Source: Linderina pennispora
Lineage: Eukaryota; Kickxellomycota; Kickxellomycetes; Kickxellales; Kickxellaceae
Direction: 5' to 3'
DNA length: 64,000 nt
Assembly (NCBI RefSeq): GCF_002104995.1
Contig: NW_024468257.1
Location: 372,001 to 436,000, forward strand
The position numbers and the translations under genes are program-made. Below, piece by piece: positions 56,838 through 62,954 of the stretch (position 1 is the stretch's first letter; each line of letters begins with the position of its first letter). The notes beneath the pieces were generated by a model. It searched no databases and was not told the DNA's origin. It was given only the letters and a program-made list of their open reading frames with translations.

Positions 56838-58382
56838 ATGCTATTCGATATGGATTACCAGGCAATCTCGTCGTCTCTGATCGCCCCAGTAGCAGCATTG
56901 GCCATTGCTATTTATGTAGCGTCTGCTATCAGGCACGCATTCTTCTCGCCGCTCTCGAGTATACCTGGTCCGGTCATAAACAAGTTTTCCAGTCTGCCGC
57001 TGCTGTTCAAAGTTATGACCGGCCAGTACCACGCATATTCGACAGAGCTGCATGCGAAATACGGCGAGATTGTGCGCATCGGCGCCAGCTACGTGTCCCT
57101 GTCCAACACATCGGATACACGGCTTGTCCTTGCCACCCACGGGTTTAAGAAGGGAGTGGCGTATACCAAGGGCCAGCTGACAAAGCAGAACTCATTCTCG
57201 ACTGTTGATCCAGAGTTCAACAAAGTGCGGCGGCGCCAGATTGGAGATACCTTTGCGATGCACACACTACGGGGTATCGAGGACCTGGTTGTTGGTGCGG
57301 GTGCTAACTCGCTGATCAAGGCGTGGGATGCCGAGATTTCCAAGCAAGGAGGAGCAGCAAGAGTCAACTACTTTTATGCACTACATCGCATGGGTTTTGA
57401 CGTGATCGGTGCGGTTGGGTTTGGCCAGAACTTCAACATTCTGCAGACAGGCAACACGGAAGTAATTGACAATATGCAGAGCATGATGCACTTGAAGTCA
57501 ATAATCACTGTGCTGCCATTTGTCAACCGGGTTCCATGGCTATTCCCAAAGCTGAAGAAGTCTGCGCAATCACTTTTAGACTTCATTGGCGGCGCAATCA
57601 GGATGCGCAGACAGCTTATTGAAACGACAGGTGCCCCACCACGGGTTGACATCCTGCAAAAGATGATTGATGCCAGCGATCCGGCGACGGGCCAGATTCT
57701 CGATGGAGATAACCTCGTATCTGAAGTTGGACTGATGCTGATTGCTGGAACAGACACCACCAGCAACACGCTGTCGTATACGCTTACACATCTGCTCCAC
57801 AACCCTGGTGTCTACAGGCGGGCAACGGAGGAGGTACGCAGTGTATTCCCTGATGCCTCGCAAACGATTTCGTTTAATGACGCTAAATCCAAGCTGCCCT
57901 ATCTCTCAGCAGTAATCCACGAGGCTATGCGATTGAATCCATCCGTGTCTGGCTTGCTACCACGCCAGCTTCCGGCTGATGGGGCAACGATCCAAGGCCA
58001 TCACATCCCGAAGGACGCACAAATATGCATATCTGTTTTTGCCTGTCAGCGCAATCCGCGGACTTGGGATAACCCCAATGTGTTCGACCCAGAGCGTTTT
58101 CTTGGCACCGACTTAGCTGAGAAGTTGAAGGATGTGCTGACTTTCAGCTCGGGTGTTCGGGTCTGTATCGGACAAAACCTCGCCTGGGTTGAGATCTATA
58201 CGGTTCTTGCCAACATTCTGCGCAGGTACAACTTCTCGCTGCCCGAGGACGCCCCATATGGCCCTCACAGACTGAACAGGCTTGGTGTTCCGGTCGAGAT
58301 CCCAGCCGCTTCATTTATCGTTACCGGTCCGAGGAATCCAAAAGACAACTGCTGCGTCAGCATTACTCTTGCTGCGGCTTGA
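56838..58382 (+). CDS. Cytochrome P450, array member 2
   Basis: Tandem paralogue of member 1 (514 residues, intron-free), with the same anchor and hinge (FFSPLSSIPGP). I-helix AGTDTTS, K-helix EAMR, DPERFLGTD and haem loop FSSGVRVCIGQN are intact. It differs from member 1 mainly in the F-G region and around the substrate-recognition segment after the K-helix (SVSGLLPRQLP versus SVGGFLPRCVP), which suggests a shifted substrate range. The next interval to member 3 is 3 kb instead of about 0.35 kb because it contains the Fanzor-like gene. Confidence 0.95.
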   Translation: MLFDMDYQAISSSLIAPVAALAIAIYVASAIRHAFFSPLSSIPGPVINKFSSLPLLFKVMTGQYHAYSTELHAKYGEIVRIGASYVSLSNTSDTRLVLATHGFKKGVAYTKGQLTKQNSFSTVDPEFNKVRRRQIGDTFAMHTLRGIEDLVVGAGANSLIKAWDAEISKQGGAARVNYFYALHRMGFDVIGAVGFGQNFNILQTGNTEVIDNMQSMMHLKSIITVLPFVNRVPWLFPKLKKSAQSLLDFIGGAIRMRRQLIETTGAPPRVDILQKMIDASDPATGQILDGDNLVSEVGLMLIAGTDTTSNTLSYTLTHLLHNPGVYRRATEEVRSVFPDASQTISFNDAKSKLPYLSAVIHEAMRLNPSVSGLLPRQLPADGATIQGHHIPKDAQICISVFACQRNPRTWDNPNVFDPERFLGTDLAEKLKDVLTFSSGVRVCIGQNLAWVEIYTVLANILRRYNFSLPEDAPYGPHRLNRLGVPVEIPAASFIVTGPRNPKDNCCVSITLAAA

Positions 58383-59019
58383 TCACTGGACCGTCTCTAA
58401 CGCACAATCTTTTACCTATATATAGGATTTTATAGTCCAAAAAATGTCCAACTGTCCGGTAAAACCTTTTTAGTTGGTTAAAACATAAAACTCTTAAGCT
58501 TCAACACGGGTTTGAGTGACTTGCTCTGTAAACTCCTTTTTATCTTGTGTGGCATCTGACCTCATCGGTGAAACCAGGGTGACAAGCTGGTATTGTAGTG
58601 GTCACAGGTCTCCACTAGATATCTCCATTGGTTCAACGCAAGAGCTGCTCTCATTGTCGGTCGGCCTGATAACTTCCATGGCATCACCATGGCGGTCATC
58701 ACCGGCTGCGCAACACTCAGGATATTTATTTATGAGCACCTATTGAATAAGGCCATATAGCTCTTCTAGCGGTCATGCAATATTTGTGGGTTTATTTTAC
58801 AAATTAATTTGTCTTATGAACATGCGTAAGCAGTAGTATTTGGGCCACAATGGATCCAGTCTGTATAGACTGATTCAAGAGACTGTATCAGTGCTAAGGG
58901 CCCCAAGAACCATGCAAGCCAGATCATTTTTAATAAAAAGTTCTTAATGCTATGCATACGCAATAAAGCAAAGCTGAACAGCATCATTTCTCTTCTTACT
59001 TGCCTATTGAATTTCTCAA
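58383..59019. other. Region between P450 gene 2 and the Fanzor-like gene
   Basis: About 640 bases, AT-rich compared with the P450 genes, probably including the left end of the inserted element. It holds a short perfect stem AGTCT-GTAT-AGACT near 58860-58875 followed by a partial copy (agactgtatcagt). I could not find terminal inverted repeats or a target-site duplication by eye. Confidence 0.4.
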
Positions 59020-61115
59020 ATGAATATTACCCGCAGCACTACTGTCATAAAGACATCACTTGGTGGTATTGGCTTCCGTGATTCTATGTTGCCCCGCCTA
59101 GAGCAATTTGTACACAGCGTCAATATCATCAAAGAGCATACATACATGCTTGCACGATGGATATTACTCCATCAACTAGCTGACGATGATGCTTTTGACC
59201 CTGCAATATTTGTGAAAAAGGGAATCTTTCATTCAATTTATTTATTTATATATCACAATTTGAAGGCAAAGGCAGCCATGTCTGCCGAGGATTTCGTCAA
59301 CTGGAAGGACAGGTCAGAACTGTCGAGCGCAGATTTCGGTGATGTAGTTAGATACCATATTTATGATTATCTATTGCATAATGGCGATATCGAGCTACAT
59401 GGTGTACGTGAAATGAATCAAGTAGCAACATACGTGGATGCCGAGCTGATGACAGCATACAAGAGCAACATTGTGTTGCACTATGGCACTTGCCTACAGC
59501 GGATTCTGGCCAAATTGATTGATATTTGCAGCCGCAAAAACACACTGCACAGTACAATGGGCAATGTGTCCAAGGCTGAGTTCAATAACGCATGTCAAGT
59601 GTGTATTTATACACCTGCACAGAAGCTCCGCCAGGCAGTTGCCTCTAGGCACCCTGATCTCAGTGTGCTCACCCTACCGATGCTTGCAATCTACAACAAG
59701 CTGGCACCAGTCCTTAATGCCTATGATGCCAAGTACAGATTCGCCAAAGACAGCCGATACTATGATGCCAAGGCAAATCCACTTAAGCATCTGCGTGCAT
59801 ATATTCGCTTATGCCAGCTTATTGAGAATGAGCAGCTTGGCAAGTCTCCCCCCAATGCCTGCCTCTGCGGACATCATGGATCCCAGGCCATGTGCGCTTA
59901 GACAAGCAAATAATCAAGCAGGTGTTTATTTCGAAAACACGTGAGGAGGTTACCAAGATCAACGCAGCAAAGAGGGCAGCAGCAGCAGACACTGTTGCAG
60001 CACTTAACAATGCATATGCATCAGCACCCCCAGTCTGTGCACACGACCCGGTCCAAGGGATCACACAATCTGTGTGGGATGTGTGGGGCCGGGTCGCAGA
60101 TTTAACATCAAAGCCATTTAAGGCGCATGATGATAGAAAATTCCACGGAATGGCAACAACAGATGGTATAACGATATGCATTTTGTTGCAAGACAAGGTA
60201 TCCAAGGCTGATGCTGCAGGAGACGATGCTGCGGGAGGCAATGCTATAGGCGATGCTGCAGGAGGTGGTGATGCAGGAGGCGATGCTACAGCTGACTGTC
60301 ACTATATCCACCAAATCCCACAGCCAGAGCTGCAGAATCTGAAAGGCTGCTGTGTATTCATCGATCCAGGTCGGGGTGATTTACTATACATGATGCACAA
60401 AAATAGCAGCAATGGGAAAGAGGGTGAAAAAATGCTCTACCGCTACACACGGCAGCAGCGCAATAAGGAGCTCAAGCTGCGCCATTATGACAGGATTCGT
60501 TGGGATACAAAGGATCAAGTCCCAGAAGATGCTGTCCGCATAGCAGAGGCAGAGCTTTCCAAGCACTGCTGCCGGACCCTTAGCCCAGCAAAATTCCGTG
60601 CCTACGTTGCTGGCCGTGCATCTGTGCGGTGTGTCCTAGCACCGTTTTATGCCAGCACGATGACAGCGCGAAGGTTACCAGAGCAGCAGCCCACTAAGTC
60701 AAACAAGCAGCACCAGAGGCGCTGGAAGGCCCATCTGGGTGTCGGGACCAGTCCCAAGGTGTACTCGCTTCACCGCAAGCTGCGCCTTGATTCATTCATG
60801 AACCAGGCCCGTACAGACCACAGGCTTGCCGCAAAACTCCGGAGCAAGTTCGGTCCAGATCCAGTGCTGATCATGGGCAATTGGAGTGCGCCGATGGCCC
60901 GACACCATGCGCCGATTCGTGGCAAGGGATGGCGCGACAAGTTCAAGCACCATGGCTTTGAAGTCTATCTGATCGACGAATTCCGGACATCATCGATGTG
61001 TCAACCCATGCTGACTAGCAGCCGAGCTCGCATCGCAAGCAGAGCAATTCTAGTATGTAAAACCAATACCCTGCATGCAGACATAATGATGTACGCTCTC
61101 GGGCACGTGAATTGA
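59020..61115 (+). CDS. Fanzor-like protein (eukaryotic TnpB homologue), frame-broken
   Basis: Two frames, 59020-59901 and 59859-61115, form one gene of about 700 residues, joined by a -1 shift in a run of six C near 59848. N-terminal signature: TVIKTSL followed by MLPRLEQFVHSVNIIKEHT. Helical REC/WED-like part, then LRAYIRLCQLIENEQLGK and PLRTSWIPGHV. RuvC-I motif VFIDPGRGDLLY at about 60353-60388, then RYTRQQRNKELKLRHY. The late block MGNWSAPMARHHAPIRGKG leads to EVYLIDEFRTSSMC near 61000. These blocks, in this order, are those of Fanzor proteins, eukaryotic relatives of IS605 TnpB, some of which are RNA-guided DNA nucleases. The C-terminus after DEFRTS is shorter than usual. The element sits in the P450 array. 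Confidence 0.82.
59020..61115 (+). mobile_element. Probable Fanzor-carrying element, ends not defined
   Basis: A TnpB/Fanzor-type gene standing alone between two P450 paralogues is best read as a mobile-element insertion or its remnant. No transposase (Crypton, hAT, Helitron, Mariner) is seen nearby. Only the gene body is given because the true ends could not be found. Confidence 0.5.
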
Positions 61116-61382
61116 TAATTGCTTCCATACAGTGGAACGGTAAATGGCTGGGATTGGTTTGGGCAATTAGGACGATGCACTACTATATGCAACCCACCCT
61201 TCGCCAGCCACAAGGCTGAGAACAATGTTTGAGATAGCACTATTCCCACTTGACATAGTTGCTCCCACAGCCGTGCATGGTTGTGTGGTAGTGTCAAGGT
61301 TGGGCTCGTCTTAAATGCACCCCCAGCTCCCTCACTCTATCTCTCCTCTTTTCCAACGCCCATATCATAATTCTCATTTTCA
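61116..61382. other. 3' flank of the Fanzor-like gene and promoter of P450 gene 3
   Basis: About 270 bases. In known Fanzor loci the guide RNA comes from the region downstream of, or overlapping, the 3' end; this is where it would be sought. Small hairpin-like stretches occur (cacagccgtgcatggttgtg near 61266), but nothing diagnostic. Confidence 0.4.
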
Positions 61383-62954
61383 ATGACTGCCGACTATTTA
61401 GACAACATATTCAACATACATCCTGAGAAGCTATCCATCTGGCCAGTGCTTTTGCTGGCTGCTGCAATATACATGGCACAGCTAATTTACTTGGCATTTT
61501 TCTCACCACTTTCCAATATCCCTGGGCCGCTCGTGAACAGATTCTCCAATCTTCCACTCAAGTATCGCATGGTGCGTGGTCAGTATCATTCGTATTCAGC
61601 TGCACTTCATGCCAAGTATGGTGAGGTTGTACGAATCGGACATGATCATGTCTCCTTATCAAACACTGCAGACTGCCGTTTCGTTCTCTCCACCCATGCA
61701 TTTCCAAAGGGGAAGATGTATGATAAGGGGTACAGCAGCAAAGGGTTCGTCGTCAATACCTTCACAGCGGTCAACCCTGAGGTCAACAAATTCCGTCGCC
61801 GCATGATTGGAGACGCCTTTGCAATTCATACGATGCGTGCAGTTGAGGGCATGGTTGTGGATGCGGGTGTTGGTTCGCTGATAAAGACATGGGATACTGA
61901 GATTTCAAGGCAAGGAGGGCAGGCCTGTATCAACTACTATGACTCATTCCTCCGCATGGGGTTCGATGTTATTGGCAGACTATGCTTTGACAGGAACTTT
62001 AACGTTCTCCAGAAAGGAAACACCGAGGTTGTCGACTGGATTCACGATACTGTGACGTTTGCCGCATTCCGTGGAATGGTTCCTTGGCTCTCAAGACAGC
62101 CGTGGGCATTCAAGAAATACAAAGACTCCCGCGCTAGCATCAAAAGGCTGGCAGACACAACTGTCGAAACTCGCCAGAAACAGATCCAAGAAGCTGGTGC
62201 ACCGCTGCGCGTCGATTTGCTACAGAAGCTTGTCGATGCTAAAGACCCCGAGACTGGAAATATATTTACACCCCTCGAGATTCAGTCAGAGATCATTCTC
62301 ATGCTCACCGCTGGGTCCGATACTACTAGCAATATGCTTACATGGACTGTAATGAACCTGATGCACTATCCGGAGATCTACGGACGTGTAACTAGAGAAG
62401 TGCGCGCCGCATTCGCCGATACCTCCCGGACTATTTCGTTTGCCGATGCCACATCGAGGCTGCCGTATCTCACAGCTGTTATCTATGAGTCAATGCGGCT
62501 AACACCATCGTTCTCGAGCATACTGCAACGGTGCGCACCTACTGGTGGTACGTATATTCAAGGATTCGTCATTCCGAGTGATTCACACATCTGTGTGTCA
62601 ATTTCTGCTTGCCATCGCAACCCACGCCTATGGAAGGACCCGGAAACCTTTGATCCCGAGCGCTTCCTTGGTCCAGATTCGGCAGCACGGATGAGAGACG
62701 TACTGGTGTTCAGTTCAGGCGTTCGCATCTGTATTGGGAAAAACCTGGCCTGGTTTGAACTGTACTTGGTGCTTGCAAACATTCTGCGCAGGTATGACCT
62801 CTCGCTGCCTGTAGATGCGCCGTATGGGCCACATAGGCTGGACAAGGTTGGCGCTCCGGTCGAAATTCCAGCGCAATCGCTTCTTGTCACTGCTCCGAGG
62901 AATCCCAAGAGTGATTGCCGCTTAATCATTTCTTTGGCAGAGACAGGCTTTTGA
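61383..62954 (+). CDS. Cytochrome P450, array member 3
   Basis: 523 residues, intron-free, same family as members 1 and 2 but the most diverged of the array. Anchor and hinge FFSPLSNIPGP; I-helix AGSDTTS; K-helix ESMR; DPERFLGPD; haem loop FSSGVRICIGKN. The N-terminus before the anchor is longer, and the C-terminal end differs (LAETGF). All catalytic motifs are intact, so it should be active. Lies just downstream of the Fanzor-like insertion. Confidence 0.95.
   Translation: MTADYLDNIFNIHPEKLSIWPVLLLAAAIYMAQLIYLAFFSPLSNIPGPLVNRFSNLPLKYRMVRGQYHSYSAALHAKYGEVVRIGHDHVSLSNTADCRFVLSTHAFPKGKMYDKGYSSKGFVVNTFTAVNPEVNKFRRRMIGDAFAIHTMRAVEGMVVDAGVGSLIKTWDTEISRQGGQACINYYDSFLRMGFDVIGRLCFDRNFNVLQKGNTEVVDWIHDTVTFAAFRGMVPWLSRQPWAFKKYKDSRASIKRLADTTVETRQKQIQEAGAPLRVDLLQKLVDAKDPETGNIFTPLEIQSEIILMLTAGSDTTSNMLTWTVMNLMHYPEIYGRVTREVRAAFADTSRTISFADATSRLPYLTAVIYESMRLTPSFSSILQRCAPTGGTYIQGFVIPSDSHICVSISACHRNPRLWKDPETFDPERFLGPDSAARMRDVLVFSSGVRICIGKNLAWFELYLVLANILRRYDLSLPVDAPYGPHRLDKVGAPVEIPAQSLLVTAPRNPKSDCRLIISLAETGF

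Follow-up and report, generated by a model that had tools for sequence, protein, structure and literature searches.

A Fanzor1-bearing Helitron family in Linderina pennispora, and a proposed role for its nuclease at empty insertion sites

The genome of Linderina pennispora harbors a family of Helitrons, which are rolling-circle transposons, that carry the gene for a Fanzor1, a eukaryotic protein related to CRISPR nucleases. I propose that tandems of a RepHel element and a Fanzor element are probably the autonomous form of this family, and that the Fanzor nuclease, guided by an omega-RNA, probably cuts empty A-TA sites, thereby keeping and spreading the Helitron. What Fanzors do for their transposons can here be asked of about 100 young copies, at least eight of them with intact frames, in the company of a RepHel transposase and each with a 3' flank that is a possible guide. 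Their insertion sites predict a recognition motif, and the motif agrees with that of a related enzyme. The family is a source of new, intact Fanzor1 proteins whose predicted motif is short. Because Helitrons do not duplicate their target on insertion, it also allows the idea of homing or retention to be put to a direct test in a transposon of that kind.

The family was met in a window of 64,000 nucleotides, the whole stretch of DNA that was analysed, which lies on contig C212 of a genome of 26.17 Mb in 222 contigs, the one searched throughout. An earlier note, made from the letters of the window alone, had read there a Fanzor-type gene of an early-diverging fungus. Both the family and the host were correctly called. 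The peptides it quoted are all present, in the order and at the places it gave, in two frames of the + strand, 59011-59901 and 59832-61115. By phmmer, the N-terminal part of the gene, searched apart, matches the solved Fanzor1 9cf0 (PpFz1, from Parasitella) with an E-value of 1.3e-19. The C-terminal part matches 9cf0 with 5.5e-36 and a second Fanzor1, 8gkh (from Spizellomyces), with 3.1e-19. These values exclude a chance match, and by its motifs the window gene is a Fanzor1. Pfam by itself does not reveal the family: its best relevant match, TNB (PF07282), has an E-value of 0.1, under its cut-off, so the family identity rests on the PDB and motif comparisons.

The note had also suggested a search for other copies, and this turned up a family repeated about 100 times or more. 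The window sequence has 113 matches among the best 40 of 264 candidates scored; genome searches scored the best 40 to 50 candidates, so that lists of paralogs are lower bounds. A pattern scan found 114 exact 3' ends of the family, whose full length is about 3.35 kb (at least two of those ends belong to another Helitron family), and the reversed pattern, as a control, found 0. Forty copies were fetched, picked by their similarity to the window, and with the window copy make up the set of 41 considered below. Eight of the 41 (L017, L019, L020, L024, L026, L036, L044 and L047) have one open frame of about 860 amino acids from ATG to stop, a fraction that, given the way these copies were picked, is no genome-wide estimate.

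By homology and motifs, the intact copies encode Fanzor1 proteins. The protein of L017 has PpFz1 of Parasitella parasitica as its closest solved relative (9cf0, E 1.1e-81), followed by SpuFz1 of Spizellomyces punctatus, also a Fanzor1 (8gkh, E 7.3e-37), and 9cer (E 3.7e-5). The Fanzor1 motif is given as D-X(125,275)-[TS][TS]-X-X-C4 zinc finger-X(5,50)-RD (PMC3627910), and L017 fits it with D530, T738-S739, a finger made of C742, C745, C778 and C783, and R801-D802. PMC10711439 adds three further Fanzor1 features: a DPG in RuvC-I, a TDG in the WED domain, and an E placed six residues ahead of the finger's first cysteine. L017 has D530-P531-G532, E735 six residues before C742, and T430-D431-G432. 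An AlphaFold model of the Fanzor1 of the intact copies, made from a 6-row alignment, had a pLDDT of 35.8 and a pTM of 0.24, values too low for it to speak to the REC/WED/RuvC fold. PpFz1 has an FRI insertion that binds cyclophilin, which PMC11423790 describes from Parasitella and Rhizopus only; in contrast, Linderina has alanine-rich and GDA-repeat stretches. In L017 the first occupies residues 315-385 or so, and the second, of variable length, lies just before RuvC-I at about 443-503. A protein search, which reaches only proteins that have exact words in common with the query, gave one relative over threshold, P0001 from Coemansia sp. RSA 2673, at 29% identity. In P0001 the third catalytic position of RuvC is occupied by N rather than D, as has been reported of GtFz1 as well (PMC11423790).

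Judged by its ends, the element is a Helitron. Copies of the family begin (A)TCTTTACCTATATATAAGATTTTATAGTCC and finish with a hairpin and CTAG, after which come TA and a unique flank. A canonical Helitron is recognised by a 5' TC and a 3' hairpin plus CTRR (PMC3627910), and the family has all of these. Nor is the target duplicated: the direct repeats on either side of the insertions have a mean length of 2.3 bp, hardly different from the 2.2 bp obtained when flanks are swapped, and only 2 of the 23 copies scored (those of the 41 with both ends) reach 5 bp or more. Units of ATCTTT stand upstream of the 5' terminus in L023, L038, L041, L042 and L046. The variable (ATCTTT)n was at one time considered as a LINE-like tail, an idea that was given up because the 3' hairpin with CTAG and the RepHel-type 5' end explain the element better.

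The genome has RepHel Helitrons as well. The RepHel profile PF14214 has 13 matches in the genome, several of which are halves of one gene, and one RepHel copy, L061, carries both Rep and PIF1 domains. The first 80 bp or so are common to RepHel and Fanzor elements, at about 97% identity. The 3' end proper to the RepHel element was found in seven exact copies and one variant, and all eight run directly into another 5' end of the family. In seven instances what follows is a Fanzor element (on C1, C23, C112, C171 and C212, and twice on C157), and in the eighth it is a member of a short family (C2). Two further ends with the RepHel hairpin and a different spacer (C6 and C201, with one flank between them) continue into other DNA. 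RepHel protein is found near a Fanzor element only in the tandems; copies with Fanzor alone carry none. The tandems on C112 and C157 differ in their outer flanks on both sides and differ slightly at their junctions. The different flanks imply that the tandem moved as a unit or that its halves met more than once. Several other Helitrons came to notice along the way: a short family (L062, L074 and L075) whose 5' end is common with RepHel and Fanzor elements, a RepHel copy (L059) with an internal pair of inverted repeats of about 500 bp, and a second, more distant type of RepHel (G000:C68:198243-198650) with an open frame of 1989 codons.

Fanzor1 genes have been seen in Helitrons before. Helitrons are named among Fanzor1 carriers in PMC10711439, and the cases best described are CRe-1, -2 and -3 of Chlamydomonas reinhardtii (Bao and Jurka 2013, PMC3627910). 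Like the family described here, these are non-autonomous Helitrons, as that account presents them, present in many copies, some with internal deletions, and their 5' end is also that of autonomous Helitrons in the genome they inhabit. They differ in that they are of the Helitron2 type, have 5 or 10 exons, insert after TTTT and frequently show target duplications, whereas the Linderina family has TC...CTAG ends and a single intronless frame, inserts at A^TA without duplicating its target, and forms RepHel-Fanzor tandems. Among paper titles on Fanzor, Helitron, rolling-circle, TnpB or Linderina transposons, none was about the present system, though large surveys of Fanzors may list Linderina. 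None of those titles points to a Helitron family of a fungus that ends in TC...CTAG, forms RepHel-Fanzor tandems, has many intact copies free of introns and a constraint that was measured, and inserts at targets matching the motif of a Fanzor1 that has been tested.

Is the gene maintained for its function? Selection and conservation were assessed in an alignment of 31 of the 41 copies, the other 10, including the window copy, having either no recognised end or a length outside 2.0-3.6 kb. Omega was taken as the ratio of nonsynonymous to synonymous changes divided by the ratio expected under neutrality, for which the 5' non-coding part served as calibration, with the repeat-rich codons 440-504 omitted. 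It falls from 0.95 for singletons to 0.69 for variants in two or three copies and to 0.31 for variants in four or more. Among the last class, one stop codon was seen where 8.4 were expected. Purifying selection has thus left its trace on variants that have passed through several copies. Most simply, constraint acts on the lineage that keeps spreading, and single copies are free to decay. Conservation extends past the gene. The 94 bp of 3' non-coding sequence that precede the last 30 bp have a value of 0.021, which puts their conservation level with that of the first two codon positions (0.020 and 0.022), compared with 0.041 for position 3 and 0.036 for the 5' non-coding part. The terminal 30 bp (0.036) and the first 100 bp (0.059) are not specially conserved.

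The insertion sites bring us to the motif. TA follows CTAG in each of the 37 copies scored (4 of the 41 were not scored). Put in terms of the junction itself, the 3' flank starts with T in 37 of 37, and the last base of the 5' flank is A in 19 of 25, these being the copies of the 41 that fit a strict 5' pattern. Canonical Helitrons insert between A and T. A scan of the genome for ends, which did not demand TA but did demand A or T ten bases further on, returned 100. By their spacer 95 of these are of the Fanzor type, and 92 of the 95 have TA (79 of 82 when each distinct flank is counted once). Ends of other Helitron families in the same scan have TT (3 distinct flanks). With two CA cases and one TA case added, TA is found in 1 of 6 in the other families (Fisher 8e-6), a count that leaves out two TA ends of one family because they were found by a pattern that demands TA; with both included the figures are 3 of 8 and 6.5e-5, and the comparison set is small either way.

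The TAM of PpFz1 is reported to be ATN (PMC11423790) and that of SpuFz1 to be CATA (PMC10432273). The A^TA sites of Linderina fit the first, and ATA is contained in the second. Given this agreement, the target of the Helitron may double as the motif of the Fanzor. A similar logic is known from the right-end RNAs of IS607 TnpB and Fanzor, in which the fixed bases of the target next to the right end are used both in the scaffold and in the TAM (PMC10711439). The cases studied there are IS607 and elements with terminal inverted repeats, and the extension to the TA beside a Helitron is a proposal made here. The Spizellomyces prototype, SPu-1, which is assumed to be the same as SpuFz1, is described as having terminal inverted repeats and putative TA duplications (PMC3627910).

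Sites that lack the element bear on whether TA belongs to the target. Thirteen insertions were queried for paralogous sites (the second query scored the best 40 of 74 candidates), and at least eight such sites were found. Three are empty, and the distance between the flanks shows the other five to be filled. Two of the three empty sites have A^TA at the insertion point: the paralog of L015 on C106 reads CCCA^TATAC, and the paralog of L011 on C16 reads CACCA^TATAT. All three are altered there, by 8 bp on C106, by about 100 bp on C16 and by a deletion on C24. The last removed some 40 bp between GTCAC repeats, and its right edge falls 16-20 bases beyond the motif (for L026, the insertion concerned, the 5' boundary is uncertain by 3 bp). 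This edge is near the reported cuts of SpuFz1, which lie after bases 16-17 and 20-21 (PMC10432273). The alterations suit cutting followed by repair, but changes made during insertion would also account for them, and three cases prove nothing. With every empty paralog rearranged in some further way, TA could be host DNA or the element's own end. The flanks of L014 are themselves repeats, and a candidate empty site for that copy was set aside as not readable.

The model I propose would work as follows. RepHel-Fanzor tandems would move autonomously, and they would mobilise in trans the copies that have Fanzor alone or are deleted. Transcription of the element's 3' end would give an omega-RNA, with the host sequence that directly follows CTAG-TA as its guide. 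What the nuclease recognises would be A-T(A), the Helitron's own target. An empty site, A-TA followed by the flank, would then be a substrate, and the filled 3' junction, G-TA followed by the same flank, would be spared. Cutting of the empty site would either promote repair from a filled copy or produce a scar, and in this manner the Helitron would be kept and spread. The more specific part of the model I offer tentatively, as something that could well be wrong: that the Helitron's insertion motif (A^T plus A) and the nuclease's recognition motif are one and the same, that each copy's own 3' flank supplies the guide, and that filled sites are immune. Their immunity would come from G taking the place of A at the 3' junction.

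Right-end RNAs of Fanzor1 with three stems have been described, with fixed target bases taken into the scaffold (PMC10711439), and the present model follows that description. In Linderina the 3' 124 nt fold, by RNAalifold on the alignment, into three stems, the last of which is the Helitron hairpin. Compared with column shuffles there is little extra stability (z of -1.2 for 124 nt, -0.3 for 160 and -1.9 for 260). Pairing holds in 831 of 837 cells, mostly by invariant pairs and G-U changes, and the three-stem alignment contains no clear compensatory change. Rfam gave no match in the window from 58300 to 61400.

One may ask whether the Fanzor gene does anything for the Helitron. Helitrons capture genes, and a captured gene might simply hitch-hike, its constraint derived from a few source copies selected for some other reason and its TA nothing but the end of the element. 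That only 8 of the 41 copies are intact, and that deletion forms without RuvC spread as well, would be expected of a passenger. I consider it unlikely nonetheless, since the variants common to several copies show selection, two of the three empty paralogs have TA where the element would have gone in, and the motif agrees with the TAM of PpFz1. Among the deletion forms, one internal junction, 1733/2860, is common to four copies at different sites, with two more within 3 bp of it, and two other junctions, 1678/2860 and 1631/2794, recur in two copies each. L009 and L012 occupy one duplicated insertion site and differ in their internal deletions, and each of the two junctions is also present in copies elsewhere, a pattern that suggests recurrent deletion or gene conversion between copies.

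Alternatively, the Fanzor might be selected for a step in transposition itself, such as cutting or choosing the target or processing strands, rather than for cutting empty sites. The constraint on the gene and its position beside RepHel fit any role in the spread of the element, and TA at the insertion points could reflect the nuclease's choice of target. This too I judge improbable, and rather decidedly so, because the 82 distinct flanks among 95 ends mean that no copy's guide would steer insertion to new sites, and because Helitron families of the genome with no known Fanzor gene have inserted too.

The copy in the window is one of the internally deleted forms. It extends on the + strand from the 5' TC at 58408 to the 3' CTAG at 61050-61053, ends that were read in the sequence and bounded by comparison with the 40 fetched copies, and it measures 2646 bp, against about 3.35 kb for full copies. 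The A at 58407, the base that most scored copies also have there, is the host's at the 5' side of the insertion point. On the other side, TA at 61054-61055 is read, from the flank counts, as host DNA and is predicted to be the last two bases of the A-TA recognition motif. The Helitron 3' hairpin occupies 61026-61040, with one mismatch in this copy. The N-terminal part of the Fanzor1 runs from 59020 to a frameshift stop at 59901. The frame changes in a run of C at 59848-59853, and the C-terminal part continues from 59854 to 61000. Comparison with intact copies places the catalytic D of RuvC-I, within DPG, at 60363-60365 and the E of RuvC-II at 60978-60980. Comparison with full copies reveals two deletions that had escaped the note, one of 147 bp, in frame, with its junction and 11 bp of microhomology at 59975-59985, and one of 487 bp, with its junction and 9 bp of microhomology at 60992-61000. 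The second takes out the zinc finger and the D of RuvC-III, along with the stop codon and the greater part of the 3' non-coding sequence, so that the RuvC triad is incomplete, and past its junction the frame is no longer Fanzor coding sequence.

The earlier note was right that the frame breaks in the C-run but had thought that a sequencing error might be the cause. The same 6-base run is found at the same place in 10 other copies of the 41 (17 of the 41 fell outside the pattern used for the count), which argues that it is not a one-off error. The note's further suggestion, that the gene may otherwise be intact, does not survive the absence of the finger, the third aspartate and a stop codon of its own. 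That the locus is an intact gene masked by one erroneous base is hardly credible: the C-run is a homopolymer whose length varies among copies, as such an error would have it, but the residues for catalysis and for binding zinc are lost in the two deletions, and the reading could stand only if the assembly were in error at both. With the C-run change and two internal deletions, the window copy is dead. No empty insertion site for it was found within the window. The element sits between cytochrome P450 genes of a tandem array (56838-58382 and 61383-62954), and a paralogous stretch on C64 has the same insertion with the same flanks, at 91% and 94% identity.
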